Shown: one piece after another, positions 2,703 to 26,152 of the stretch
How positions within the stretch are numbered: the first letter of the stretch is position 1
Layout: every line of letters starts with the position of its first letter
From: a virus
Reading direction: 5' to 3' (one strand)
Length of the DNA: 29,054 nt
IMG/VR virus record: IMGVR_UViG_3300002835_000818
Coordinates: 1 to 29,054 of that record
The notes under the pieces: model-generated
What the model saw: only the letters and a program-made list of their open reading frames with translations
Databases searched by the model: none
What the model was told of the DNA's origin: nothing
Position numbers and translations under genes: made by a program

Positions 2703-4175
2703 ATGATTCGTTCAATGATTGCTGCTGGTGCTGCTGTTGCCTCTGTTGCAACCCCCGCACTTGCTGCTGAAATTAATCTTGATGGTGTGAGTAAGTATGC
2801 TTCTTCTGAGCAAGTTACAAGTATCAATCAATTCTCAGATGTTCGCCCTACTGACTGGGCATATCAGGCACTCAATAACCTTGTAGAGCGTTATGGTTGT
2901 GTTGCTGGTTATCCTAACGGCACCTACAAAGGTGGTCAAGCAATGACTCGTTTTGAGGCAGCTGCTCTACTGAACGCCTGTCTTGACCGAGTAACCGAAA
3001 CTACTGACGAACTTAAGCGTCTTCTTGCCGAGTTCCAAACAGAACTTTCTGTTCTTCGTGGTCGTGTTGACGGACTTGAAGCGAAAGTTGGTCAACTGGA
3101 AGCAACTCAATTCTCTACCACTACTAAACTTAAGGGTGAAGCAAACTTCATTCTTGGTGGTGTTCCTGGTGCTCGTACCACGAATGGTGCTAATGTTGGA
3201 AATACTGCTTTCAACTATGACCTTCGCCTGAACTTTGACACTTCGTTTACTGGCAAAGACCTGCTTCGTACTCGTCTTCGTTCTGGTAACTTCAGTGCTC
3301 AACCTTTCGGCACTTCCTCTTCTATCCTGAAACTGGATAAAGCAGAAGCTTATGAGAACTCAGTTTTCATTGACCGTCTGTACTATCAGTTCCCTGTCAG
3401 TAAGGGTGTAACTCTTACTGCTGGTGCTCTGGTTCGTAACACTGAAATGGCATGGGTTCCTACCGCTTACCGTTCGGAAATCCTTGACTTCTTCACCACT
3501 GCTGGTGCTCCTGGTGTTTACAACAAAGCAACTGGTGCTGGTTTTGGTGCTCAGTATGTTCAACCTGGCAAGAAAGGTGGATTCGTTGCTGGTGTAAACT
3601 ATGTTGCCCAACAAGGCGACAACAGTGACACTGGTGTGTTCAATGAGCAAGGTGCTCTCAATACCCTGGCACAGATTGGTTATCGTGCTCCTCAGTGGGG
3701 TGTGGCATTTGGTTATCGTTATGGTACTCAAGGCACCCGTGTTCGTACTTACAATGGTGTTCTTGGTGCTAACGGTACTCTCGCCGCTGGTCAATCGTCC
3801 AACGGTTATGCTGTGAACGCTTATTGGCAACCCAAGACTTCCAGCATCATTCCTTCTGTGAGTGGTGGTTATAGCTGGAACACTGTTAGCGGTCCTTCGA
3901 CTCCTAACAATGCTACCAACACTTCCACTTGGTTCGCTGGTCTTCAGTGGAGCGATGTGTTTGCTAAGGGCAACTCTGCTGGTGTTGCTTATGGTCAACC
4001 TGGCAATGCTGCTGGTCTCAGTGAGAAAGCTGGTCTGCTTGAAATCTTCTATAAGTATCGTGTGAGCGACAACATTAGCATCACTCCTGCTATCATCTAT
4101 GTTGCTAACAACCAAGCATTCCAAAACGCCTCTTCTAACTGGGGTGGTGTGATTCAGACCAAGTTCACTTTCTGA
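2703..4175 (+). CDS. Cyanobacterial-type outer-membrane porin (SLH domain + OprB-type barrel)
   Basis: 490 aa and apparently full length. Residues 1-22 are a Sec signal peptide ending in PALAA. Residues about 40-97 form an S-layer-homology domain (FSDVRPTDWAYQALNNL, GYPNGTYKGG, MTRFEAAALLNACL), followed by a short coiled coil (about 102-134) and a long beta-rich region ending in a terminal Phe (KFTF), the usual outer-membrane assembly signal. This is the SomA/SomB-like porin architecture of cyanobacteria: the SLH part binds peptidoglycan-linked polymer and the barrel forms a diffusion pore. All arginine codons are CGN, unlike the AGA-rich tail genes, which fits recent host origin or selection for high expression. 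It shares a promoter with the DUF401 permease, whose ATG follows 6 nt after this stop. A structural role in the virion is unlikely given the signal peptide. Confidence 0.93.
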   Translation: MIRSMIAAGAAVASVATPALAAEINLDGVSKYASSEQVTSINQFSDVRPTDWAYQALNNLVERYGCVAGYPNGTYKGGQAMTRFEAAALLNACLDRVTETTDELKRLLAEFQTELSVLRGRVDGLEAKVGQLEATQFSTTTKLKGEANFILGGVPGARTTNGANVGNTAFNYDLRLNFDTSFTGKDLLRTRLRSGNFSAQPFGTSSSILKLDKAEAYENSVFIDRLYYQFPVSKGVTLTAGALVRNTEMAWVPTAYRSEILDFFTTAGAPGVYNKATGAGFGAQYVQPGKKGGFVAGVNYVAQQGDNSDTGVFNEQGALNTLAQIGYRAPQWGVAFGYRYGTQGTRVRTYNGVLGANGTLAAGQSSNGYAVNAYWQPKTSSIIPSVSGGYSWNTVSGPSTPNNATNTSTWFAGLQWSDVFAKGNSAGVAYGQPGNAAGLSEKAGLLEIFYKYRVSDNISITPAIIYVANNQAFQNASSNWGGVIQTKFTF

Positions 4176-4181
4176 TAAGTT

Positions 4182-5222
4182 ATGGACTTGGCAATGGGTA
4201 TCTGGGAGAAACTTCTCTTTCTCCCTTACATCATCGGCATTATGATTGTCGGTGGTCTCGTAAAACAATACGGAGTGCTCAACGAAGTATTCGTAGCACT
4301 ACGAAAAATCTTCAAGTCAAATAGACTTGTTGTTGCTGCTACTGCTTTAGCTGGTGGTGTTCTACCCATCGAAGGGCGTGTCGTTATGTCGGCACCCCTT
4401 CTGGACTCCATCGCTTCGGATAAATCACAATCTCGTTCCAAGTTTGGTATCGTAGATTATCTTTCTACTCACCACTATTACTGGTGGTCGCCACTTGAGA
4501 AGACTGTGGTTCTTCCGATGGCAGCACTGGGTCTATCCTACACACAATTTCTAGGATATACTTTGGTTCCCCTCATCATTACACTTGCGTTTGCTGGATC
4601 TTTTATCTTTGCTTATGTAAAGGAAACTGATGTGGAGATTATCCAAGAGACCCGTACTTTTAGTTGGAATCGTCTTCTGAAAGGTTGGGCTCCTATCGTT
4701 GCTACGATGTGGTTCCTGGTTTGCTATGGCGATCCTGATATGCCTTACCTGTTCTCTGTTTGGTTTGGTGGTCTTGCTGCTTATTATTCATTCATCTGTA
4801 ATGATTGGAAGTGGGGTCGTTATATCAACTGGAAGTTTGCTGGTCTTGCAGCACTGGTTCTCACCCTTGCTGCTGTGATGGGCGAGATCAAAGAACCAGT
4901 CATGGAATACCTGAAATTGACTGCTGAGCAGGGCACTGCTGCCCTCTATACGGTCTCTGTGGTGGGGTTCCTGGCATCATTCGCCATGGGTTCCTCTGGT
5001 AAGTATGCTGGCATCGTCTCGCTGCTTGCCAAGGCATTTGGTCCTGGATACTTGACATGGTTCCTCTGTGTGGAGTATGCTGGGTACATCATCTCACCGA
5101 TGCACAAGTGCCTGCTGATCGGTCAGCAATACTTCGGCACTCCTATCAAAACTTATTACAAAGTTCTTGGTTGGTTGATTGCTGCTTTGGTTGGATGGGG
5201 AGCACTGACTTTAGTATTCTAA
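4182..5222 (+). CDS. DUF401-family integral membrane protein (ion-transporter superfamily)
   Basis: 346 aa with about eight to ten hydrophobic segments (for example about residues 11-30, 47-62, 108-146, 168-182, 220-235 and 255-345). GGVLPIEGRVVMSAPLLD at 58-75 and GYIISPMHKCLLIGQQYF at 301-318 closely resemble the two signature regions I know from the DUF401 family, membrane proteins related to the ArsB/NhaD/C4-dicarboxylate type of ion transporters. The substrate is unknown for the family. It follows the porin by 6 nt and overlaps the next small gene by 1 nt (TAATG), so it is co-transcribed from the 2613 promoter. Together the two would place an outer-membrane pore and an inner-membrane carrier in the infected cell. 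Family confidence is good; transport function is inferred. Confidence 0.8.
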   Translation: MDLAMGIWEKLLFLPYIIGIMIVGGLVKQYGVLNEVFVALRKIFKSNRLVVAATALAGGVLPIEGRVVMSAPLLDSIASDKSQSRSKFGIVDYLSTHHYYWWSPLEKTVVLPMAALGLSYTQFLGYTLVPLIITLAFAGSFIFAYVKETDVEIIQETRTFSWNRLLKGWAPIVATMWFLVCYGDPDMPYLFSVWFGGLAAYYSFICNDWKWGRYINWKFAGLAALVLTLAAVMGEIKEPVMEYLKLTAEQGTAALYTVSVVGFLASFAMGSSGKYAGIVSLLAKAFGPGYLTWFLCVEYAGYIISPMHKCLLIGQQYFGTPIKTYYKVLGWLIAALVGWGALTLVF

Positions 5223-5387: not shown

Positions 5388-5477
5388 GGAAGGTCAATCC
5401 GATTGGCGACGGAACCTGTCTTGAAAACAGTTGAGGTGTTAAAGCCCTTGGGAGTTCGACTCTCCCACCTTCCGCCA
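5388..5477 (+). tRNA. tRNA-Ser (anticodon UGA)
   Basis: Acceptor GGAAGGT (5388-5394) pairs with ACCTTCC (5467-5473); discriminator G 5474 and an encoded CCA 5475-5477. Anticodon loop CTTGAAA holds TGA at 5422-5424. A long variable arm makes the class II shape expected of Ser. T arm GGGAG-TTCGACT-CTCCC. The outermost anticodon-stem pair is a C/T mismatch. It decodes UCA, common in the AT-rich tail genes. The next tRNA begins at the very next base. Confidence 0.93.
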
Positions 5478-5549
5478 CGGGGCATAGTTCAGCGGTAGAA
5501 TGCTGGTTTTGGGAACCAGAGGTCGCAGGTTCGATCCCTGCTGCCCCGA
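5478..5549 (+). tRNA. tRNA-Pro (anticodon UGG)
   Basis: Acceptor CGGGGCA (5478-5484) pairs with TGCCCCG (5542-5548), discriminator A 5549. CCA is not encoded (TCA follows). Anticodon stem CTGGT/ACCAG, loop TTTGGGA with TGG at 5510-5512. T arm GCAGG-TTCGATC-CCTGC. It decodes CCA, heavily used in the fibre gene at the left of the window. It abuts tRNA-Ser, so the pair must be cut from one transcript. Confidence 0.94.
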
Positions 5550-15518: not shown

Positions 15519-16400
15519 ATGACATCTTTCACTCCATTAGCTGGTCCTAATAGTTTCCAAGGATTTAGATCCATGGTAAGTCGTCAGGCACCTGCAGCAT
15601 CTAACTTATATTGGGTTAGATTTAGGGAACCTCCTAATGTTTTTTCTGGATGGGATGAAGGCAAAGCAGCATTCAATAATGGAATTACTACTGGACCAGG
15701 TGTTGATAATGCAAGACTGTTAACTTATTACGCTACAGATGTAACTATTCCAAGCAGACAATTGACAACTGGTGATGCTAAAACAGTTGGTTCAATGTAC
15801 AGATATGTTACTGGAACAACTTATAGCGAAATAAGTATTCAATTTATTCTCCCAAGGACACTTTATACTAGAATGTTTTTTGAGAGATGGATGAATTGGG
15901 CATCTAATGATTCTACGCAAAAAGTATCTTGGTATGATGATTACACTTGCTCTTACTTGGATATATTTAAGTATGAAAGAGGTGGAATGACACCAGCTCC
16001 AACGGATTGGACTTCATACTCTTCTGTTGTATCTCCAGGAGTTGGTGGAGAAAAACCAACATTGGAAAATTACAAAGCAAATAGTGTTAAGTTTAACAGA
16101 TGTTCTGGTGTGTGGTCTCTTAAGAAAGCATTTCCATTTAACATAAGTAATATAAACTTAAATTCTGGACCTACAAATTTACTGAGTATGGAAGTATCTT
16201 TTTACTATGAAAGATATAGATTCTATACACCAGTAAATCCAAATGTTGGAGATATTAATATTCCAGTAACTCTTGGGTCAACAGGATCCAGAAGTGCTAG
16301 TACTGGAATTAGTACTGCTACTGCTCGTGGTCCAGTTGGATTGAGTGGTGCAACATCAACTGTCTTGGCATCATTAACTGGAGCAGTTGCGTACATCTAA
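15519..16400 (+). CDS. 54: Tail-tube-fold protein, probable baseplate-tail tube initiator gp54
   Basis: 293 aa (T4 gp54 is 320). The middle reads YYATDVTIPSRQLTTGDAKT, then EISIQFILPRTLYTRMFFERWM, and the end has FPFNISNINLNSGPTNLLSM followed by VSFYYERYRFY. This is the tail-tube-like sheet-plus-helix fold shared by gp19, gp48 and gp54. The divergent neighbour gp48 and the following hub genes favour gp54, on which the tube starts to polymerise; a tube-like protein such as gp19 is the alternative. A late box is 42 nt upstream. Confidence 0.6.
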   Translation: MTSFTPLAGPNSFQGFRSMVSRQAPAASNLYWVRFREPPNVFSGWDEGKAAFNNGITTGPGVDNARLLTYYATDVTIPSRQLTTGDAKTVGSMYRYVTGTTYSEISIQFILPRTLYTRMFFERWMNWASNDSTQKVSWYDDYTCSYLDIFKYERGGMTPAPTDWTSYSSVVSPGVGGEKPTLENYKANSVKFNRCSGVWSLKKAFPFNISNINLNSGPTNLLSMEVSFYYERYRFYTPVNPNVGDINIPVTLGSTGSRSASTGISTATARGPVGLSGATSTVLASLTGAVAYI

Positions 16401-16440: not shown

Positions 16441-17154
16441 ATGCCTTTACCTAAATTAGTAGTTCCTGAATATGAATTGGAATTGCCATCAACGAAAGAA
16501 ACAATTAAGTACAGACCATTTCTAGTTAAGGAAGAGAAACTTCTTCTTACTGCTATGGAAATGGGTGGTGAAAAAGAAATGATCAATGCAATTAAAACTA
16601 TTATCAAAAATTGCACAAACTTAAAAGGACGCATTGATGATCTAGCAACATTTGATATTGAATATGTGTTCTTAAAGATCAGATCTAAATCTGTTGGTGA
16701 AGTCTCCAAAATTATGGTTACATGTCCTGACGATGGTGAAACTCAAGTTCAAGTTGATGTTCCTCTAGATCAAATCGAAGTTAAGTGGCCTGAGAAGCAT
16801 AGTAATACTATCGAACTTAACGATACTGTTGGTTTGATCATGAAGTATCCTTCTATTGATACCTTTGTTAAGTTGAATTTCACTGGTGAAAGTATTACTG
16901 TTGATAACATCTTTGAGTTGGCAGCAACATGTATTGATCAAGTATATGAAGGTGAAGAAATTTATGAGACCAAAAACTTTACTAAGAAAGAAATCAATGA
17001 GTTCCTTGAAGGAATGAAGAGTGATCAATTCCTTAAACTACAAGAGTTTTTTGCTGAGATGCCTAAACTTGAGTATGATATTGAAGTTGAAAATCCAAAT
17101 ACTGGAGTGAAGAGCACTATTAAGTTAGAAGGTCTTGGAGCTTTTTTCGAGTAG
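16441..17154 (+). CDS. 26: gp26-type baseplate hub / tail assembly protein (T4 baseplate family)
   Basis: 237 aa (T4 gp26 is 208). It begins MPLPKLVVPEYELELPST, with KYRPFLVKEEKLLLTAMEMG and later FDIEYVFLKIRSKSVGEV and VTCPDDGETQVQVDV, the pattern of the T4 baseplate (gp26) family. It is required for assembly of the central hub. The last codons are GCT TTT TTC GAG TAG and contain a T-TTT-TTC slippery heptamer, from which a -1 shift would add the gp51 frame and make a fusion of about 305 aa. Position before the tape-measure-like genes is where other phages encode frameshifted tail assembly chaperones. Confidence 0.85.
   Translation: MPLPKLVVPEYELELPSTKETIKYRPFLVKEEKLLLTAMEMGGEKEMINAIKTIIKNCTNLKGRIDDLATFDIEYVFLKIRSKSVGEVSKIMVTCPDDGETQVQVDVPLDQIEVKWPEKHSNTIELNDTVGLIMKYPSIDTFVKLNFTGESITVDNIFELAATCIDQVYEGEEIYETKNFTKKEINEFLEGMKSDQFLKLQEFFAEMPKLEYDIEVENPNTGVKSTIKLEGLGAFFE
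17142..17148 (+). other. Putative -1 ribosomal frameshift site (T TTT TTC)
   Basis: In gp26 the codons are GCT TTT TTC GAG TAG. The heptamer T-TTT-TTC allows both Phe tRNAs to slip back one base with good pairing. The -1 frame then continues CGA GTA GCC and stays open to the stop at 17355-17357. The site lies 3 nt upstream of the zero-frame TAG. No strong stimulatory hairpin is obvious just downstream. Confidence 0.7.
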
Positions 17155-17204
17155 CCCTTCTTCATAGTAGTTTAGCAAATCATCTTGAGACTAATTTTGC
17201 TTTA

Positions 17205-17357
17205 ATGCACCATCATAAGTGGTCCTTGTCTGATCTCGATAACTTAGTTCCTTGGGAAAAGGCAGTGTATGTTGATATGTTAGTTGGTCATCTGAAGAAG
17301 GAAGAAGAAAGATACAAGAAACAACAACAACAAACGCAAGGTCGAACTAGTCTCTAA
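17205..17357 (+). CDS. 51: gp51-like frame (separate start, or -1 extension of gp26)
   Basis: The frame is open from 17124 to the TAA at 17355-17357. ATG 17205 would give 50 aa (MHHHKWSLSDLDNLVPWEKA, then VYVDMLVGHLKKEEERYKK), but no ribosome-binding site precedes it, and the residues before it in frame (LLHSSLANHLETNFAL) look like real protein. It most likely is made as a -1 extension of gp26, starting at 17148, of 69 residues. The HHHKWSLSDLDNLVPWEK part matches short gp51-like proteins in related phages, as I recall them. gp51 is a hub assembly factor in T4 (249 aa there, so the relation is loose). The stop overlaps the next ATG by 1 nt. Confidence 0.6.
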   Translation: MHHHKWSLSDLDNLVPWEKAVYVDMLVGHLKKEEERYKKQQQQTQGRTSL

Positions 17358-20300
17358 TGTTATACAGCAATAAGATCAAGCCATACTCATTTATTAACCC
17401 AAATCTGATCTCTGCTCCAAGATCAGGTATGGCTTCTGCTGTAAAATCTGGAGGAAGTAGAATTGGTTCTACATTTGCAGCATCCTCCAAGAAAACTCTA
17501 CTTGGATTGAATAGACTTGGATCATCTCTAGCTTCTCTAGGAGAAACACAAAGACAGATAAGAGATGTCATCTCTATTCAATTAGTTGCATCTAAAGATG
17601 TAAAAGCACTTAAGTTAAGAAGAAAGCAATATCTAAGAGATCAACAATCAGAAAGGCAAACTGAACTTGCTGGACAAAAGAAGGGAGAAGTAGTAGATAA
17701 GGAAGAAGTTAAAAAAGAAGGTGAGAAGAAGTTATCTTGGTTAGAGAAACTTCTAGGTCCATTTAAGGGCATCGTTGAGTTTGCACTACGAACTATAATT
17801 ACTCAAGGCATTCTTAGATGGATGTCCGATCCTAAGAATGGAGAAAGACTTGAGAAGGTTGTATCTGGTCTTTCTAAATTCTTTGGATTTATATTTGGGA
17901 TCGTTAGTTGGTCTATTGGATCATTCATGTCTGGCATTAGTAATGTCTTTGGTGATGGATCCAAGGGAGGATTGTCTAGATTTGCAGAAATCTTAGGTGG
18001 ACTGGGGCAGATAATTGTAGGAATTGCTGGTCTAAAAGCAGCATCATATTTGCTCAATCCATTTAGTTTGATTGGTGATATTCTAGGTCTCCTTGATGTT
18101 ATGTCATCCAAGGATACCTCTGGCGGGGGAGATTTACCAACAGACAAACCAGGTAAACCTGGACGAGCAGAGAGGGGTGCATTAACTAAGTTTGGTAGAA
18201 ATGCTTTTGTTAAAACTCTAGGTAAGGGTGGAGCAAAATCTGCACTAACATTCTTCAAGAAAACAGTATCACCAATACTTAAAAGGATTCCGATCATTGG
18301 TGGTCTAATTGACTTCGCAATAAATGTATTTGTATTCAAGGAGTCTCCTGGAAAGGCAGCATTCAAGGCAATAGGTGCTGGTCTTTTGGGATGGATAGGT
18401 GGAGCACTTGGTAGTGTTATTCCTGGTCCTGGAACATTCGTTGGTGCTCTACTTGGAGGCATGGCAGGTGATTCTCTAGGGGGTCTTCTATATGATGCTA
18501 TCTTTGGTAAGAGTAAGAAGGATGATGAACCTGCTCTTGCTGAGGGTGGACTAGTTACAAAACCAACGAGAGCAATTATTGGTGAAAAGGGTCCAGAGAT
18601 TATTATTCCTTTAGCAATGATGGGTTCTGTTGGTGGAACTGGTCCAGTAATTTCAATATTAAGTTCTGCATTAACTGGTGCATTGTCTGCAATGGGATCC
18701 TCTGGAGAACTTGCTAAGCAGGTTATCTCTGATGATCTTGCAGAAATGCAGAAGCAAGCAGGAGGTGCTAGACCTGCACAACCTGGAGAAACTTTAGGTA
18801 AGAGTGTAGTTAAAGCAGGTGTATCCTTAGAGCAGATGCAATTGGGTGCTGGTTCTGGTGAAGTTAATGAATACATAGGAGTCAAATCTTCTTATGGGAA
18901 GAAGTCATCTAGAAATACCCTAAGAGGAGCACTTGCAAATATCTTAGGAGTATTTGAGTCAATCACTAAGAAGTCTTTTAGTACTGGTGGAGGAGGTGGA
19001 ACTGGTGGATCTGGAGGAGGTAGCGACAGTGGTGATCTTGGTCCAATAGAAGAAATTAAACCAGGTCCAATGCACACTAAAGGTGCTCAAATTGCTAAAA
19101 ACTTGATGCGTTTACTTGGCATTAAAGATTATCAGGCAGCTGGTATTGTTGGAAACCTCATTCAAGAAAGTGCTCTTGTTCCAGATAGGATACAAGGAAA
19201 ACCGCCAAACCAAGGTGGTCCACTAAAACTAGATGGCAGAACTGGTTATTCCTATCCCCAATGGACTTCTATTGATAGGCAGAAGAATTTTGCTGCATAC
19301 ATGGAGTCAAAGGGATTTGATTGGAGAAATAGAGGAGCAACTGATGAAATGGCAACGGGATTCCTAGCTAAGGAATTCAAGGGTTATATGTCTAGCGTAT
19401 TCAAGAACACGAAAGATGCAGCGGCAGCATCAAACTGGGTTCTATTTAACTATGAAAAACCAGCAGATCAGGGTGTAGGAGAGCAAAGAGAAAGATCCGC
19501 TGATTCTCAGGCAGTTCTTAATAAAATGGCAAGAGGTGGTAAGATCCCTATGGATTCTCCAGAATATAAGGAGAAGTGGAGTGGAGATGGAAGAGATGAG
19601 ATGCTGAAAAAGTTCTCTGCTGGAGGAAAGGCAATTGTTGAGGGAGCAAAGAAGATAATTGGTCAGGGAAGAGGTGTTGTAAATCAATGTGCAATTACAA
19701 CAAGAGATGCGTTAAAGGCAGCAAAACATCCTTCTGCTAAAAAACCAACAGGAATTGGAGATCTTGATACTCCAAGAGGAAGTTCTTTTAGTAAAGTATT
19801 AGATTATGCTGCATCATTTGGTGGAAGTGATATGGGAACAGTGATAAAAGATAAATCTCAAGTAATGGCAGGAGATATTTTATTGTGGAAAGCTGATAGA
19901 GATCTAGGTGGAACTTCCAATAAAGGAGCGATTACTCATGTTGGAATCGCTGCTGATGATGGATTAAAGCATCAATATGATCATAATGTTTCTAGAGGTT
20001 TTCATTACAGACCACATTGGGGTTCATCTGGTGGCACTTCATGGTTTGCTGCAATTCGTTTAGGTGGATCTGGAACAATTGGACCAGGGGAATCTACAAC
20101 AACTTCTGGTTCAAGTTCTGTTGAAGAGAAGGAGATGACTCCAGAGGAGCAATTAAAATCAATCTTCTCAAAGATGGCTTCTGATATCATGAAACTCAAT
20201 ACTGCATCATCAGAACCACAGTCAACATCTAGTTCTCCATCCCCTGCAGTTAAACCAGTTCCAAATCAAAATCAAAATTTGGATAAACTATCAGCATCTG

Positions 20301-20440
20301 CTGCTGCCTTAGAGGAAGATAACAAACCAAAAGCGTCTATTGTACCAGTACCCACTGCAATAAATAGTGGCAGTGCTTCAGCACCAGCAGCTCAACCTCC
20401 AGTAGTTCGTGCTAGAAAACCTATTACTTACGGATTCTAA
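17357..20440 (+). CDS. Tape-measure-like tail protein with phage tail lysozyme and NlpC/CHAP-type domains
   Basis: 1027 aa. The N-terminal third is Lys/Glu-rich and helical, then QGILRWMSDPKNGERL at about 150, a hydrophobic Gly/Ile-rich region (about 165-390), and GGLVTKPTRAIIGEKGPEI (about 396-414), the small motif typical of tape-measure proteins. Residues about 570-720 (KGAQIAKNLMRLLGIKDYQAAG..., GNLIQESAL with E604) match the phage tail lysozyme domain, and residues about 770-905 show C778 (NQCAITTRDAL) and H861 (ITHVGIAADD), the Cys-His pair of an NlpC/P60 or CHAP amidase. The C-terminus has PEEQLKSIFSKMASDIMKLN, shared with the next protein. It likely sits in the tail tube and opens the cell wall on injection. 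Confidence 0.8.
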   Translation: MLYSNKIKPYSFINPNLISAPRSGMASAVKSGGSRIGSTFAASSKKTLLGLNRLGSSLASLGETQRQIRDVISIQLVASKDVKALKLRRKQYLRDQQSERQTELAGQKKGEVVDKEEVKKEGEKKLSWLEKLLGPFKGIVEFALRTIITQGILRWMSDPKNGERLEKVVSGLSKFFGFIFGIVSWSIGSFMSGISNVFGDGSKGGLSRFAEILGGLGQIIVGIAGLKAASYLLNPFSLIGDILGLLDVMSSKDTSGGGDLPTDKPGKPGRAERGALTKFGRNAFVKTLGKGGAKSALTFFKKTVSPILKRIPIIGGLIDFAINVFVFKESPGKAAFKAIGAGLLGWIGGALGSVIPGPGTFVGALLGGMAGDSLGGLLYDAIFGKSKKDDEPALAEGGLVTKPTRAIIGEKGPEIIIPLAMMGSVGGTGPVISILSSALTGALSAMGSSGELAKQVISDDLAEMQKQAGGARPAQPGETLGKSVVKAGVSLEQMQLGAGSGEVNEYIGVKSSYGKKSSRNTLRGALANILGVFESITKKSFSTGGGGGTGGSGGGSDSGDLGPIEEIKPGPMHTKGAQIAKNLMRLLGIKDYQAAGIVGNLIQESALVPDRIQGKPPNQGGPLKLDGRTGYSYPQWTSIDRQKNFAAYMESKGFDWRNRGATDEMATGFLAKEFKGYMSSVFKNTKDAAAASNWVLFNYEKPADQGVGEQRERSADSQAVLNKMARGGKIPMDSPEYKEKWSGDGRDEMLKKFSAGGKAIVEGAKKIIGQGRGVVNQCAITTRDALKAAKHPSAKKPTGIGDLDTPRGSSFSKVLDYAASFGGSDMGTVIKDKSQVMAGDILLWKADRDLGGTSNKGAITHVGIAADDGLKHQYDHNVSRGFHYRPHWGSSGGTSWFAAIRLGGSGTIGPGESTTTSGSSSVEEKEMTPEEQLKSIFSKMASDIMKLNTASSEPQSTSSSPSPAVKPVPNQNQNLDKLSASAAALEEDNKPKASIVPVPTAINSGSASAPAAQPPVVRARKPITYGF

Positions 20441-20446
20441 TAAGAG

Positions 20447-23400
20447 ATGGCAATAAAAGCACCTTCAACTTCAACTAGACCTGCTCTCTATAAGATGGTA
20501 AGTTTGCCATCTTATGGTACTGCTACTGCTACAAAGGGAGCAGGAGAAAGTAAAACGATACAGTCTGGTTTTGGAGCATTTATTACTTCAATTAATAGAA
20601 TGGGTGCTACTATCAATAGTACCATAATTGTTAACCAGCAAATACTAAAGACTCTAACGGAAGATATTAAGTTAAAGTCTGATGAACTTGCAAAGATGAA
20701 GTCTGCTTTCCAAAAGGAAAAGGCAGGTAAGGATATTGACGGAACAGATGAGGGTGCTAAGAAAGAACCCTGGTGGAAAAAGGCAATGGGTGGATTTGCC
20801 AAAGCAGTTGTTCCTAACTTCTTCGAGGGTTTAGCGCAGTTAGGACAATTTTTCATCAGAGCATTTGTAGTTCAAGGTGTTCTTAGGTGGATGTCTGATC
20901 CTAAGAATGGGGAGAAGTTAGCAAAAATTGTTGGTGGATTAATAAAAATATTCTCTTGGTTGTATAAATTTGTTACTGATAATTTATTCAAGACTATTGA
21001 AGGTCTTGTTGATATGTTTGATGGTGATAAGAATATATGGGAACGAATAGTAGGATTTGGTAAATTTATTACTGGTTTTGGTGCTCTTCTTTTGGGAATG
21101 GCATTCCTCAAGAAACCAGCAATGGTTATTAGAGGATTTACTTGGGTACTTACTACTCTATATAAGAATTTATTTAAGACTAAATCAAAGTTAGCAAAGC
21201 AATCTGCTGGCGGTGCTGCAGGAGGCATCCCTACCAGAGGAGGCGGTAGAGGTCGAGGTCTTGCAACATTTGCTGCTGGCGCTGCTGCTGGTGCCTTAGC
21301 AAGTGGAATGCTTAGTGGTGGTGATTCTTCGTCAGATACATCAAATGGTTCCGCCCCAAATGAACCAATGTTGGCTGCTGGTGGTATTGCAACTAAACCA
21401 ACCTCTGCAATACTTGGTGAAAGAGGACCAGAGATTACAATGCCTCTCAGTAGGAACATGGCAATTCCTTCTGATAACGAAAAGAGAAGAAAGGATGCAG
21501 GAATTAAACCACTTTCATCTTTGGGATCTGCTGGAGCATCTTCAGATCCAAATCAAGCAAATAATTTATCTAAGTTATTCATGGCACCATTCAAGGGAAT
21601 TGGTGCTGGTATTCTTGCTAATATATCACAGGTAGTAACATCAATTGGTGGTTCAACAGGTAAGTTACTTACTCCTATATTAGGAAATCTCATAGCACCA
21701 ATCGCAAATAGTTTTGGTATTCCACCTGGAATTGTCAAAACTGTTCAGGGAAAAATGTCTTCTGGAGTTTCTGGTGGAGGTGCTTTGCCTGGAAAGAAAG
21801 AAGGATCTGATGGAATTAAGAAACTTTTTGGTAAAGCAGGTTCAGTTCCATCTGAGGAAGAAAAGAAATTTAAGAAGAGAAATGATAATTCTGTTCTTGG
21901 ATTACTTTCTGATATTCTAGGTGCATCAATTGTAATTAATAACAAACTAAAAGGTTCTGGAGATTCTTCCACAACTACAGGTTCTAGTGGCGCTGCAGCA
22001 GGAGATTCTTCTACAACTGAAACTGGTGCAGGATCTTCTGGAGGTGGTGCTGCTGGTGGTTCTACGAATACTGCTCAGGCAACTATGTCTAAAGCAGGTG
22101 GATTGCGAGAAGATGGAACTCATAAGGCAGTTACGGGTGTAACAACTGGAGAAGGTAAAACAACAAAAACTACTCCAGGGGCAGGTTTGTTGCCAGTTGA
22201 AGGTGGAGATAAGAAGTATTGGTATAATAGTTCTGGTGATGTCTTCATGTGGCAAAAACCTGGAGACCCTCTAACTGATATTACTTCATCTCAAGATAAG
22301 CAAATGTGGCAAGGTCTTGGAGGACCATTAGTTAGAGATCTTAAGGATGGTAAAGTTAAAATTCTAAAGGGAATGTTTGGTGGAGATCAAACTCCTGTCG
22401 GATATTTTAGTTATGCAATGGGAGCAATTCTCAAGGCAAGAGGTAAAAGGGGTGCAAGAGGAGGTAACTCACCAGACACATGGGAAAAACCTAAAGATGG
22501 AAAATATGGTCCAACAATAACACCAAAGAGAGCAGCAGGTGGTTGGATTAGTGGTCCTATGTCGGGTTATCCAGTATCACTCGATGGTGGTAGAAGTATT
22601 GCATTCGAGGGTCATGGAACTGAATGGGTAGGATTCAAGAAAGCTGCTGGTGGAAGAACTAATGATGCCTTTGTGGTTCCATTCAACACACCAGCAACTA
22701 GAAGTAATGGTGGACTAGTTAGTAGAAGACTTTCTGAAGCAAGAAGTGGAGGATACTCTTTACCAAGATTCTCTGCTGGTGGTGTAGTTAAGACTGAAGG
22801 TAATTGGGATACTGGACCTGGATACACAATTGGTGGAGCAACTGATCAGCAAGGAAGACCAGTTGTATTTTCTGCTGATGCCGCAAAAGCATTTGCTAAA
22901 ATGATGTCAGAATCTGGAGGAAAAGTAAAACCATCTGATGTTGCAAGTAGTAAAAGAAGTCCAGAAAAAAATAGAGCAGTAGGTGGTGCTTCTGGTTCTA
23001 AGCATATGTATGGAACTGCCATGGATATTCATGGTTCTTCCAATACATGGATTCGTAAGTATGGTTCTAAGTATGGGTGGGTAGCAAATGATTACCCAGG
23101 AAGTCATGGTGGCCACTTTGAGTTTAAGGGAGCTGGAATTACACCTGCTGATTCTCCATCTGCACCTGGAAAAAATGAAGATGGAACTTCACCTGATGTT
23201 GCAGGAGATACTGGTTCACAAGCAGAAAAGAGTCCCGAAGAACAACTCAAGTCAATCTTCTCTAAGATGTCTGATGATATCATGAGATTGAATGGTATTC
23301 CTGCAGGAGACATTGCCAAAGCAACGGAAAATGCAAAATCAGAAAAGGATAAATCCGAACAAGCACAGAGTCAGAGAATAAATAATGCAGCTGCTGCCGC

Positions 23401-23554
23401 ATTGAATAAAACAAAAAATATGAAACCAGTCGATATGAAACAAGCAATAGCGATGGAACCAATCATTCTTCCTGGTCCAGCAACATCTTTACCTATCGAG
23501 GCATTAAATCCATCAACTTCAATGATTCAATACGGTTGGAAGGTTAACATATAA
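20447..23554 (+). CDS. Second tape-measure-like tail protein, ending in an M15-type peptidase domain
   Basis: 1035 aa and a paralogue of the preceding protein: QGVLRWMSDPKNGEKL at about 144, GGIATKPTSAILGERGPEI (about 309-327) and PEEQLKSIFSKMSDDIMRLN near the end correspond to blocks in the same order in its neighbour. The hydrolase differs: SGSKHMYGTAMDIHG with H853 and D860, then GGHFEF with H890, is the HxxGxAxD...HxE pattern of M15 (VanY/D-Ala-D-Ala carboxypeptidase or L-Ala-D-Glu type) zinc peptidases. No lysozyme domain is seen. Gly/Ser-rich linkers lie at about 500-560. It starts 6 nt after the first paralogue and is followed directly by gp27. Confidence 0.8.
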   Translation: MAIKAPSTSTRPALYKMVSLPSYGTATATKGAGESKTIQSGFGAFITSINRMGATINSTIIVNQQILKTLTEDIKLKSDELAKMKSAFQKEKAGKDIDGTDEGAKKEPWWKKAMGGFAKAVVPNFFEGLAQLGQFFIRAFVVQGVLRWMSDPKNGEKLAKIVGGLIKIFSWLYKFVTDNLFKTIEGLVDMFDGDKNIWERIVGFGKFITGFGALLLGMAFLKKPAMVIRGFTWVLTTLYKNLFKTKSKLAKQSAGGAAGGIPTRGGGRGRGLATFAAGAAAGALASGMLSGGDSSSDTSNGSAPNEPMLAAGGIATKPTSAILGERGPEITMPLSRNMAIPSDNEKRRKDAGIKPLSSLGSAGASSDPNQANNLSKLFMAPFKGIGAGILANISQVVTSIGGSTGKLLTPILGNLIAPIANSFGIPPGIVKTVQGKMSSGVSGGGALPGKKEGSDGIKKLFGKAGSVPSEEEKKFKKRNDNSVLGLLSDILGASIVINNKLKGSGDSSTTTGSSGAAAGDSSTTETGAGSSGGGAAGGSTNTAQATMSKAGGLREDGTHKAVTGVTTGEGKTTKTTPGAGLLPVEGGDKKYWYNSSGDVFMWQKPGDPLTDITSSQDKQMWQGLGGPLVRDLKDGKVKILKGMFGGDQTPVGYFSYAMGAILKARGKRGARGGNSPDTWEKPKDGKYGPTITPKRAAGGWISGPMSGYPVSLDGGRSIAFEGHGTEWVGFKKAAGGRTNDAFVVPFNTPATRSNGGLVSRRLSEARSGGYSLPRFSAGGVVKTEGNWDTGPGYTIGGATDQQGRPVVFSADAAKAFAKMMSESGGKVKPSDVASSKRSPEKNRAVGGASGSKHMYGTAMDIHGSSNTWIRKYGSKYGWVANDYPGSHGGHFEFKGAGITPADSPSAPGKNEDGTSPDVAGDTGSQAEKSPEEQLKSIFSKMSDDIMRLNGIPAGDIAKATENAKSEKDKSEQAQSQRINNAAAAALNKTKNMKPVDMKQAIAMEPIILPGPATSLPIEALNPSTSMIQYGWKVNI

Positions 23555-25163: not shown

Positions 25164-25617
25164 TACGGAGTTCTTGAGTTGCCTGCTTGGCACTTGGTCT
25201 AACAAGCAACAAGCATATGGCAACCCATCTAAGTTCGCCTGGATTCTAATCTCTTGGGAACAAGTCGATGATGGTAAGTTCTATACTAAGCAGTGGTATC
25301 ACTACAAAGGTAAGAACGATCCATATCGAGAAAAATACTACACTATGACTGAAACTGAATCTGGAATTCTTCTCCAGAATTGGAACTTAGACTGGACAAG
25401 GAACGAAAGGTGTGATACAATAGTCACTCCTGAAATCAAAGGTAAATGGGTTGGAACAAACATCGGAACGGAATGCATTGTAAGAGGTGCTATTCTTCGT
25501 TCCGAGTTCCAATTGTCAAAAGAATCGTTATTTACCCGTGATGCGGGATATCTAAATAACCAAATAACTTGGGGTAGTAAAGACTACTATCACTTTGGGC
25601 GATTAACTCAGCGGTAG
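25159..25617 (+). CDS. cpeT: CpeT-like phycobiliprotein lyase
   Basis: 152 aa from ATG 25159; the open frame further up crosses CP12 and has no ATG. The sequence LSCLLGTWSNKQQAYGNPSKFAWILISWEQV, split by the family landmarks GTWSNKQQA and FYTKQWYHYKGKNDPYREKYY, matches CpeT/CpcT (DUF1001-type) lyases, which attach bilin chromophores to phycoerythrin. Cyanophages carry such genes to keep light harvesting or its repair active during infection. The last eight codons (HFGRLTQR plus stop) run 21 nt into tRNA-Val. No good ribosome-binding site is visible. Confidence 0.88.
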   Translation: MITEFLSCLLGTWSNKQQAYGNPSKFAWILISWEQVDDGKFYTKQWYHYKGKNDPYREKYYTMTETESGILLQNWNLDWTRNERCDTIVTPEIKGKWVGTNIGTECIVRGAILRSEFQLSKESLFTRDAGYLNNQITWGSKDYYHFGRLTQR

Positions 25618-25711
25618 AGTGCCTCCTTTACACGGAGTAGGTCGGCGGTTCGATCCCGTCATCGCCCATTGATAGTAGGCTTTTTTATTATGAAGCACTT
25701 GACTACTATCA
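25582..25711 (+). repeat. 11-bp direct repeats flanking tRNA-Val with a complementary copy between them
   Basis: GACTACTATCA occurs at 25582-25592 and 25701-25711. TGATAGTAG at 25670-25678 is complementary to both, giving either a 9-bp stem closed over the whole tRNA or a 9-bp hairpin downstream with a 24-nt loop. Six T residues follow at 25681-25686. Confidence 0.7.
25597..25668 (+). tRNA. tRNA-Val (anticodon UAC)
   Basis: Acceptor GGGCGAT (25597-25603) pairs with ATCGCCC (25661-25667), discriminator A 25668; CCA is not encoded. D stem ACTC/GAGT, anticodon loop TTTACAC with TAC at 25629-25631, T arm GGCGG-TTCGATC-CCGTC. The top anticodon-stem pair is a C/T mismatch, as in tRNA-Ser. Its 5' 21 nt are also the end of cpeT. 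It decodes GUA. Confidence 0.94.
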
Positions 25712-25760: not shown

Positions 25761-25789
25761 TATTGGGATGTAGAGTTCTATCAAAATTA

Positions 25790-26152
25790 ATGCGTCTTAT
25801 TTCAACACTTTTACTTGCTTCTACACTTATTGGATTTACGCCCCAAAAAGCAGAAGCAGCGAGCGGATGTTCCCTCGCCTCACATTATGGAATCGGTGAT
25901 GGATATCATGGGCAGACAACTGCCAATGGAGAAAGATACAATGCTTATGGGAAATCGGTAGCACACAAGTGGTTACCATTTGGGACCAAGTTGAGAGTGA
26001 CGAATCAACGAAATGGTAAATCAGTGATTGTGCGTGTGAATGATCGTGGTCCTTATGTAGGTGGTAGGGATCTAGATCTATCCTATGGTGCATTTTCTAC
26101 TATTGCTTCACCAAGTCAAGGTGTAGCAAGTATTTGTTATAATAGAGTTTGA
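25790..26152 (+). CDS. Secreted RlpA-like protein (double-psi beta-barrel)
   Basis: 120 aa from ATG 25790; an upstream in-frame TTG is not needed. Residues 1-24 are a Sec signal peptide (LISTLLLASTLIGF, cut after AEA-A) without a lipobox, unlike bacterial RlpA lipoproteins. The rest is one double-psi barrel: ASHYGIGDGYHGQTTANGE, VAHKWLPFGTKLRV and VIVRVNDRGPYVGGRDLDLS. E48, H59 and D85 keep the spacing (11 and 26) of the catalytic residues reported for RlpA of Pseudomonas, a lytic transglycosylase. Export to the periplasm suggests a role in wall cleavage at lysis. The SPOR domain is missing. It ends just before a strong terminator. Confidence 0.85.
   Translation: MRLISTLLLASTLIGFTPQKAEAASGCSLASHYGIGDGYHGQTTANGERYNAYGKSVAHKWLPFGTKLRVTNQRNGKSVIVRVNDRGPYVGGRDLDLSYGAFSTIASPSQGVASICYNRV

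Follow-up and report, generated by a model that had tools for sequence, protein, structure and literature searches.

The DNA stretch that was analysed, here called the window (29,054 nucleotides, IMG/VR record IMGVR_UViG_3300002835_000818), is a cyanophage contig whose nearest named relatives are S-CREM1 and S-H38 of the Kyanoviridae, with gp26 identities of 72-76%. In the region of interest, a tail tube gene is followed by gp26, gp51 and the gene for a large tail protein (Table 1). The gene 26 product matches phrog_150, "baseplate hub" (8.9e-81), and PF12322, T4_baseplate (2e-72; 243.8 bits, the curated cut-off being 24.5). An ORF located in the -1 frame at the end of this gene matches phrog_634, "baseplate hub assembly catalyst", with E values of about 9e-27 to 4.2e-26. 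These matches place the two in the T4 gp26/gp51 families.

Table 1. Genes and predicted signals around the 3' end of gene 26 in the window (TAC, tail assembly chaperone; N and NC, short and long forms).
Feature	Coordinates	Strand	Evidence or remarks
Tail tube protein, upstream	15519..16400	+	phrog_45 tail tube, 8.9e-41
Gene 26 (predicted TAC-N, zero-frame product, 237 aa)	16441..17154	+	phrog_150 and PF12322 matches; GGAG 5 nt upstream of ATG
Shine-Dalgarno-like GAAGG (GAGGG in many relatives), possible stimulator	17128..17132	+	10-14 nt upstream of slip; base frequencies in 136 relatives
Slippery heptamer T TTT TTC, one codon ahead of gp26 stop	17142..17148	+	T TTT TTC/A/T in 213/213 comparable loci
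-1 ORF from slip (gp51, predicted TAC C domain; 71 codons + TAA)	17142..17357	+	phrog_634 match; pN/pS (see text); alignment with invariant residues
1027-aa protein, ATG overlapping -1 stop; candidate tape measure/tail lysozyme	17357..20440	+	Phage_lysozyme2, 6.8e-17

Other genes were identified elsewhere in the window. Nucleotides 2703-4175 (+) encode a protein with an OprB porin domain (1.3e-14) and an SLH domain (5.8e-10) that resembles a cyanobacterial outer-membrane porin. It had no PHROG match, and its near full-length phage relative was found only in Synechococcus phage S-SRM01 (80%), with partial matches in S-CREM1 and S-PM2. Immediately 3' of this gene, nucleotides 4182-5222 (+) encode a DUF401 membrane protein (PF04165, 1e-12; phrog_14035, 3.6e-128), and the two could possibly form a transport pair. 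An RlpA-like DPBB lytic transglycosylase protein is encoded among the tail genes at 25763-26152 (+) (PF03330, 6.5e-22), and tRNA genes are found at 5388-5549 and 25596-25669 (tRNA-Ser(TGA), tRNA-Pro(TGG) and tRNA-Val(TAC)).

The 3' end of gene 26 reads GGA GCT TTT TTC GAG TAG, with the TAG at nucleotides 17152-17154. As the initial annotation had pointed out, the T TTT TTC sequence next to this stop codon is a slippery heptamer, and its phasing relative to the gp26 frame is X XXY YYZ. Also as described there, the -1 frame is open across this point (17124 to 17354), running 67 codons beyond the gp26 stop to a TAA at 17355-17357 that shares its last A with the ATG of the following gene. The functional part of this stop-to-stop frame, 17124-17357, would begin at 17142. 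The first ATG, GTG or TTG of the -1 frame in the window is the ATG at 17205, 51 nt past the start of the gp26 stop codon, and no Shine-Dalgarno match at normal spacing was found for it, in agreement with the earlier statement that this frame has no ribosome-binding site of its own. The predicted junction is G-A-F-F-R-V-A-L-L-H-S, which in its window form is ...LEGLGAFFRVALLH... and contains the same residues as the AFFRVALLHS peptide proposed originally. In the zero frame, about 9,200 codons of the window contain 27 heptamers of the X XXY YYZ type, and only the one in gene 26 has a -1 frame that outruns the stop of its gene. Because it is the sole one of the 27 with this property, and because it is kept in all 213 comparable loci, the predicted slip site is not a product of chance.

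Relatives of gp26 were collected using peptide patterns that exclude the slip region, together with named isolates. The resulting set consisted of 235 loci on the plus strand, each with an ORF of the gp26 type. A T TTT TTN sequence in the gp26 frame near the 3' end was present in 213 of the 235 (177 with C, 27 with A and 9 with T as last base), and exactly one codon separated it from the gp26 stop in 208 of these. The 213 comparable loci, which dereplication below 85% identity reduced to 136, are all those outside the Ackermannviridae-like and T4-clade phages. The remaining 22 comprise 19 Kuttervirus-type Ackermannviridae, Serratia MAM1, Vibrio K397 and one T4-type locus, which contributed gp51 itself. 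The comparison across gp26/gp51 genes that had been suggested as a check hence found the heptamer invariant outside two lineages, and it is kept even in distant gp26 relatives with no more than 26-31% identity (Vibrio PVA8 and D485, Cronobacter S13 and Acidovorax ACP17). The codon ahead of the T-run ends in T in 136 of 136 dereplicated loci, although the amino acid it specifies may be S, D, N, A, G or R; the log10 P calculated for this from the genes' own codon usage, about -29, takes the sequences as independent and serves as a guide rather than an exact probability.

The strong conservation of the Phe-Phe dipeptide at the end of gp26 could also be explained if the protein itself required it and the -1 frame were open only through accidental overlap. 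However, Phe-Phe elsewhere in these genes is encoded by TTC TTT in 75 of 142 instances and by TTT TTC in only 6, and 27 loci in which the second codon is TTA (Phe-Leu) still keep T TTT TTN despite the change in the protein. These 27 loci indicate that the conserved element is the heptamer and not the dipeptide. Since the -1 frame has, in addition, the substitution pattern of a coding sequence (see below), an accidental overlap is already contradicted and we give it practically no credence.

The -1 ORF extends for 57-71 codons from the slip across the relatives and has a conserved core, with residues F1, F2, F19, P37, E39, Y43 and L47 invariant in the alignment. A Pfam scan of this family returned chance-level matches only, and a structural model of the domain consists of three helices (pLDDT 74, modest confidence). 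Disjoint pairs of relatives gave a -1 frame pN/pS of 0.25 over the 54 nt that follow the slip and of 0.16 over the subsequent 90 nt, similar to the 0.28 obtained for the end of gp26, while those 54 nt read in the other two frames gave 1.29 and 1.82. The -1 frame is, by this measure, under purifying selection even ahead of any possible start codon. Up to and including the slip, the -1 frame contains an ATG, GTG or TTG in only 3 of the 136 loci. The positions of the first ATG are scattered, 44 of the 136 (the window among them) lack such a codon over the initial 48 nt counted from the slip, and a start preceded by a Shine-Dalgarno-like 4-mer exists in only 17. Thus, a search among the gp51 relatives for a good start with its ribosome-binding site, the outcome that would have spoken against the initial annotation, revealed neither of them to be conserved.

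These data bear on the view that gp51 is a separate short gene whose translation starts within the -1 frame, past the gp26 stop, by re-initiation or coupling, with the T-run kept for another reason. Compatible with it are the 38 of the 136 loci whose first ATG, at +15 from the slip, lies 5 nt beyond the first base of the gp26 stop, the ATG that overlaps the gp26 stop in Vibrio PVA8 and D485, and the assorted internal starts used by depositors. On the other hand, the start positions vary and are lacking from the first 48 nt in the 44 loci mentioned above, the selection on the -1 frame begins ahead of any start, and the T-ending codons and the heptamer are preserved across differing amino acids, all of which make a separate gene very improbable. 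The purifying selection ahead of any start codon implies that this stretch is translated in the -1 frame, so that frameshifting would be required in the window. The frameshift considered probable in the initial annotation is therefore supported by a -1 product that is conserved from the slip onward. We estimate at roughly 0.93 the probability that a programmed -1 frameshift at the end of gene 26 produces both gp26 and gp26-gp51, the likely TAC-N and TAC-NC. This is the best explanation for the site, its phasing, its conservation and the coding selection observed, and the slippage, its efficiency and the role as chaperone are predicted from them.

Sequences that could stimulate slippage were found on both sides of the heptamer. 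In many clades, the RNA segment covering nt 7 to 57, counted from the start of the heptamer, folds more stably than its dinucleotide-shuffled versions (mean z of -2.1), with flanking windows near 0. Two stems start 5 nt downstream of the heptamer, one of 11 bp in phages of the L013/L045 type and a GC-rich one of 6 bp in the P-HM2 group. No single structure emerged when the downstream regions of all 136 loci were folded to a consensus, because the hairpins differ between clades, and an Rfam search of nucleotides 16900-17500 gave no match. Folding by cluster revealed hairpins in several clades, but no shared stable one in that of the window (the window, L001, S-H38 and S-CREM1), the z of the window being +0.7. 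Slippage in this clade would therefore rest on the heptamer and perhaps also on the Shine-Dalgarno-like GAAGG. At the position of this element the GAG:GAA ratio is 73:44, as compared to 729:1638 elsewhere in the genes, which suggests a dnaX-like stimulator, a signal confounded by the conserved Glu-Gly encoded there.

The Ackermannviridae-like loci have a weaker slip site and a conserved -1 product. The sites in the Kuttervirus-type loci, Serratia MAM1 and Vibrio K397 are A/G-ATT-TTC, G-GTT-TTC and A-CTT-TTC, and the -1 product is conserved in all of them. At these gp26 3' ends (L091, L095, L219-L236 and L092) such sequences permit a weaker P-site re-pairing. This type of slip site is unusual and worth measuring.

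The model of gp26 has a pLDDT of 89.5, and among its fold matches in the PDB those to solved TACs were below significance: HK97 2ob9 gave an E value of 2.0 (probability 0.35, TM 0.38 of target) and 3fgx, which we take to be a TAC relative, gave 6.5 (TM 0.45 of target). A PDB sequence search with the gp26 profile returned nothing relevant. The protein encoded downstream of the -1 ORF matches "endolysin" PHROGs and, more weakly, tape-measure PHROGs (2.8e-6). This gene (17357-20440) and the adjacent one (20447-23554) code for proteins of about 1,030 amino acids that are 30% identical over the N-terminal 240 residues and share the motif PEEQLKSIFSKM close to their C termini; one of the pair has the tail-lysozyme domain, the other an M15 peptidase domain, and the tape-measure matches are weak. 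Because of these domains and weak matches, the gene that follows the -1 stop can be considered only a putative tape measure gene.

T4 gp26 and gp51 are both proteins with the gp26 domain (PF12322/phrog_150), and T4 gp51 adds a C domain that matches the -1 ORF. Residues 1-201 of T4 gp51 match PF12322 (3.9e-52) and residues 3-248 match phrog_150, while its C end (residues 207-243) matches a profile of the -1 ORF built without the T4 clade with an E value of 3.7e-5, the best of 500 shuffles being 0.08. These matches give T4 gp51 the same layout, an N domain followed by a C domain, as the gp26-gp51 fusion predicted for the cyanophage. The coding layout is thus that of a short and a long form sharing the N domain, through the frameshift arrangement here and through a gp51 consisting of N plus the same C domain in T4. 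The genetic arrangement differs, however: T4 has no slippery site, and its genes 26 (- strand) and 51 (+ strand) stand apart and are transcribed divergently, whereas the cyanophages have one gene and a predicted -1 slip. The proposed gp26-gp51 frameshift is supported for the comparable loci outside the two lineages, and T4 itself, although the best-studied relative, does not use it.

Based on homology and design, gp26 and gp26-gp51 are likely a tail assembly chaperone pair. This recasting, already suggested in the initial annotation, fits the gene order, the layout of T4 gp51 and the weak fold evidence; its component concerning the next gene stays at the level of a candidate tape measure. Alternatively, the frameshift could be real and its products be baseplate hub components or hub-assembly catalysts, as they are named in T4. 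Classic T4 genetics puts gp26 and gp51 in hub assembly (PMC3004832), where both are listed as hub assembly chaperones and the data on gp26 in the hub are contradictory, and the fold match to the HK97 TAC is not significant. Yet the slip design and the N/NC layout are those of TACs, as would be the gene order if the candidate tape measure gene is one, and T4-like TAC genes have been identified by Vladimirov et al. 2022, as cited in PMC10885494 and PMC12846349, so we consider an exclusive hub function rather unlikely. Loading of the tape measure takes place where the hub is assembled, and the two roles may coincide.

Under the frameshift and chaperone reading, gene 26 and the following -1 ORF would constitute a single expression unit for the tail assembly chaperone. 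The majority of the ribosomes would terminate at the TAG at 17152 and release the short form, TAC-N. A minority, with tRNA-Phe in both the P and A sites at UUU UUC, would move back one base to UUU UUU and continue with CGA GUA GCC..., generating TAC-NC, in which gp26 residues 1-236 are fused to a 69-amino acid helical C domain. As in the analogous lambda G/GT and P2 E/E' pairs, TAC-N may cover the tape-measure protein, and the C domain of the less abundant TAC-NC may recruit tail tube subunits.

Lambda gpG/gpGT and P2 gpE/gpE+E' are frameshifted TACs with -1 slip heptamers G GGA AAG or T TTT TTG, and TACs of this type were reportedly described by Xu, Hendrix and Duda in 2004. The window locus resembles them in layout: a heptamer close to the 3' end of the first ORF at which a -1 slip is predicted, a location between the tail tube gene and the candidate tape measure gene, and a predicted minor long form. 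It differs in the T TTT TTC heptamer and in a stop one codon later. In the TAC locus of Vandenendeviridae and Andersonviridae, an invariant poly-T (GTTTTT) is found near the TAC-N 3' end and the -1 frame is open for more than 200 bp (PMC12846349). This locus, with its short C domain ahead of the tape measure, is likewise comparable in layout, and it belongs to other phage families.

The author of the initial annotation did not know of a frameshifted TAC in T4-like gp26/gp51. This has to be corrected, since the TAC genes of T4-like phages had already been identified by Vladimirov, Gautam & Davidson (2022, Virology 566:9-15), according to the two papers that cite it, PMC10885494 and PMC12846349. 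Judging by gp26/gp51 homology these are the same gene families, with short N and long NC forms. PRFect (PMC10885494) cites that study for T4-like phages in which the short form and the long fusion are encoded by separate genes, while PMC12846349 credits it with poly-T slippery sites in T4-like TAC-N genes. The arrangement cited by PRFect differs from that of the window, where, as in almost every relative surveyed beyond the T4 clade, one gene and a predicted -1 slip are found. On the basis of these citations the kind of system is already known, gp26/gp51 has already been proposed as a TAC pair, and the window locus is a member. A description of the cyanophage gp26/gp51 frameshift by name was not found in the literature searched, in which the 2022 study is represented by the papers citing it. 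New here are the near-universality of the site beyond the T4 clade, the test for coding selection, the hairpins that differ by clade and the finding that deposited gp51 annotations are inconsistent.

It is tempting to speculate that gp26 frameshifting is the general, probably ancestral, route of the T4 superfamily to a tail chaperone pair, represented in Kyanoviridae, KVP40-like, S13-like and ACP17 phages and, with a weaker site, Ackermannviridae, and that T4 is the exception in which gene 26 was duplicated into a full-length, divergently transcribed gene 51. We regard this scenario as tentative, at somewhat less than even odds; if true, it would be new provided that the 2022 study treated separate genes as the T4-like rule.

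Cyanophage gp51 is most likely the C domain of a frameshifted tail chaperone and not a small separate gene. It is annotated from differing internal starts in the S-H38, S-CREM1, P-HM2, P-SSM7 and ACG-2014f records and omitted from those of ACG-2014d and P-RSM1, and as a consequence TAC-NC would be missing from them. The natural slip sites with and without hairpins provide a ready series for measuring frameshifting, and the T4 "hub assembly" genes 26 and 51 would become directly comparable with the lambda- and P2-style tail chaperones.
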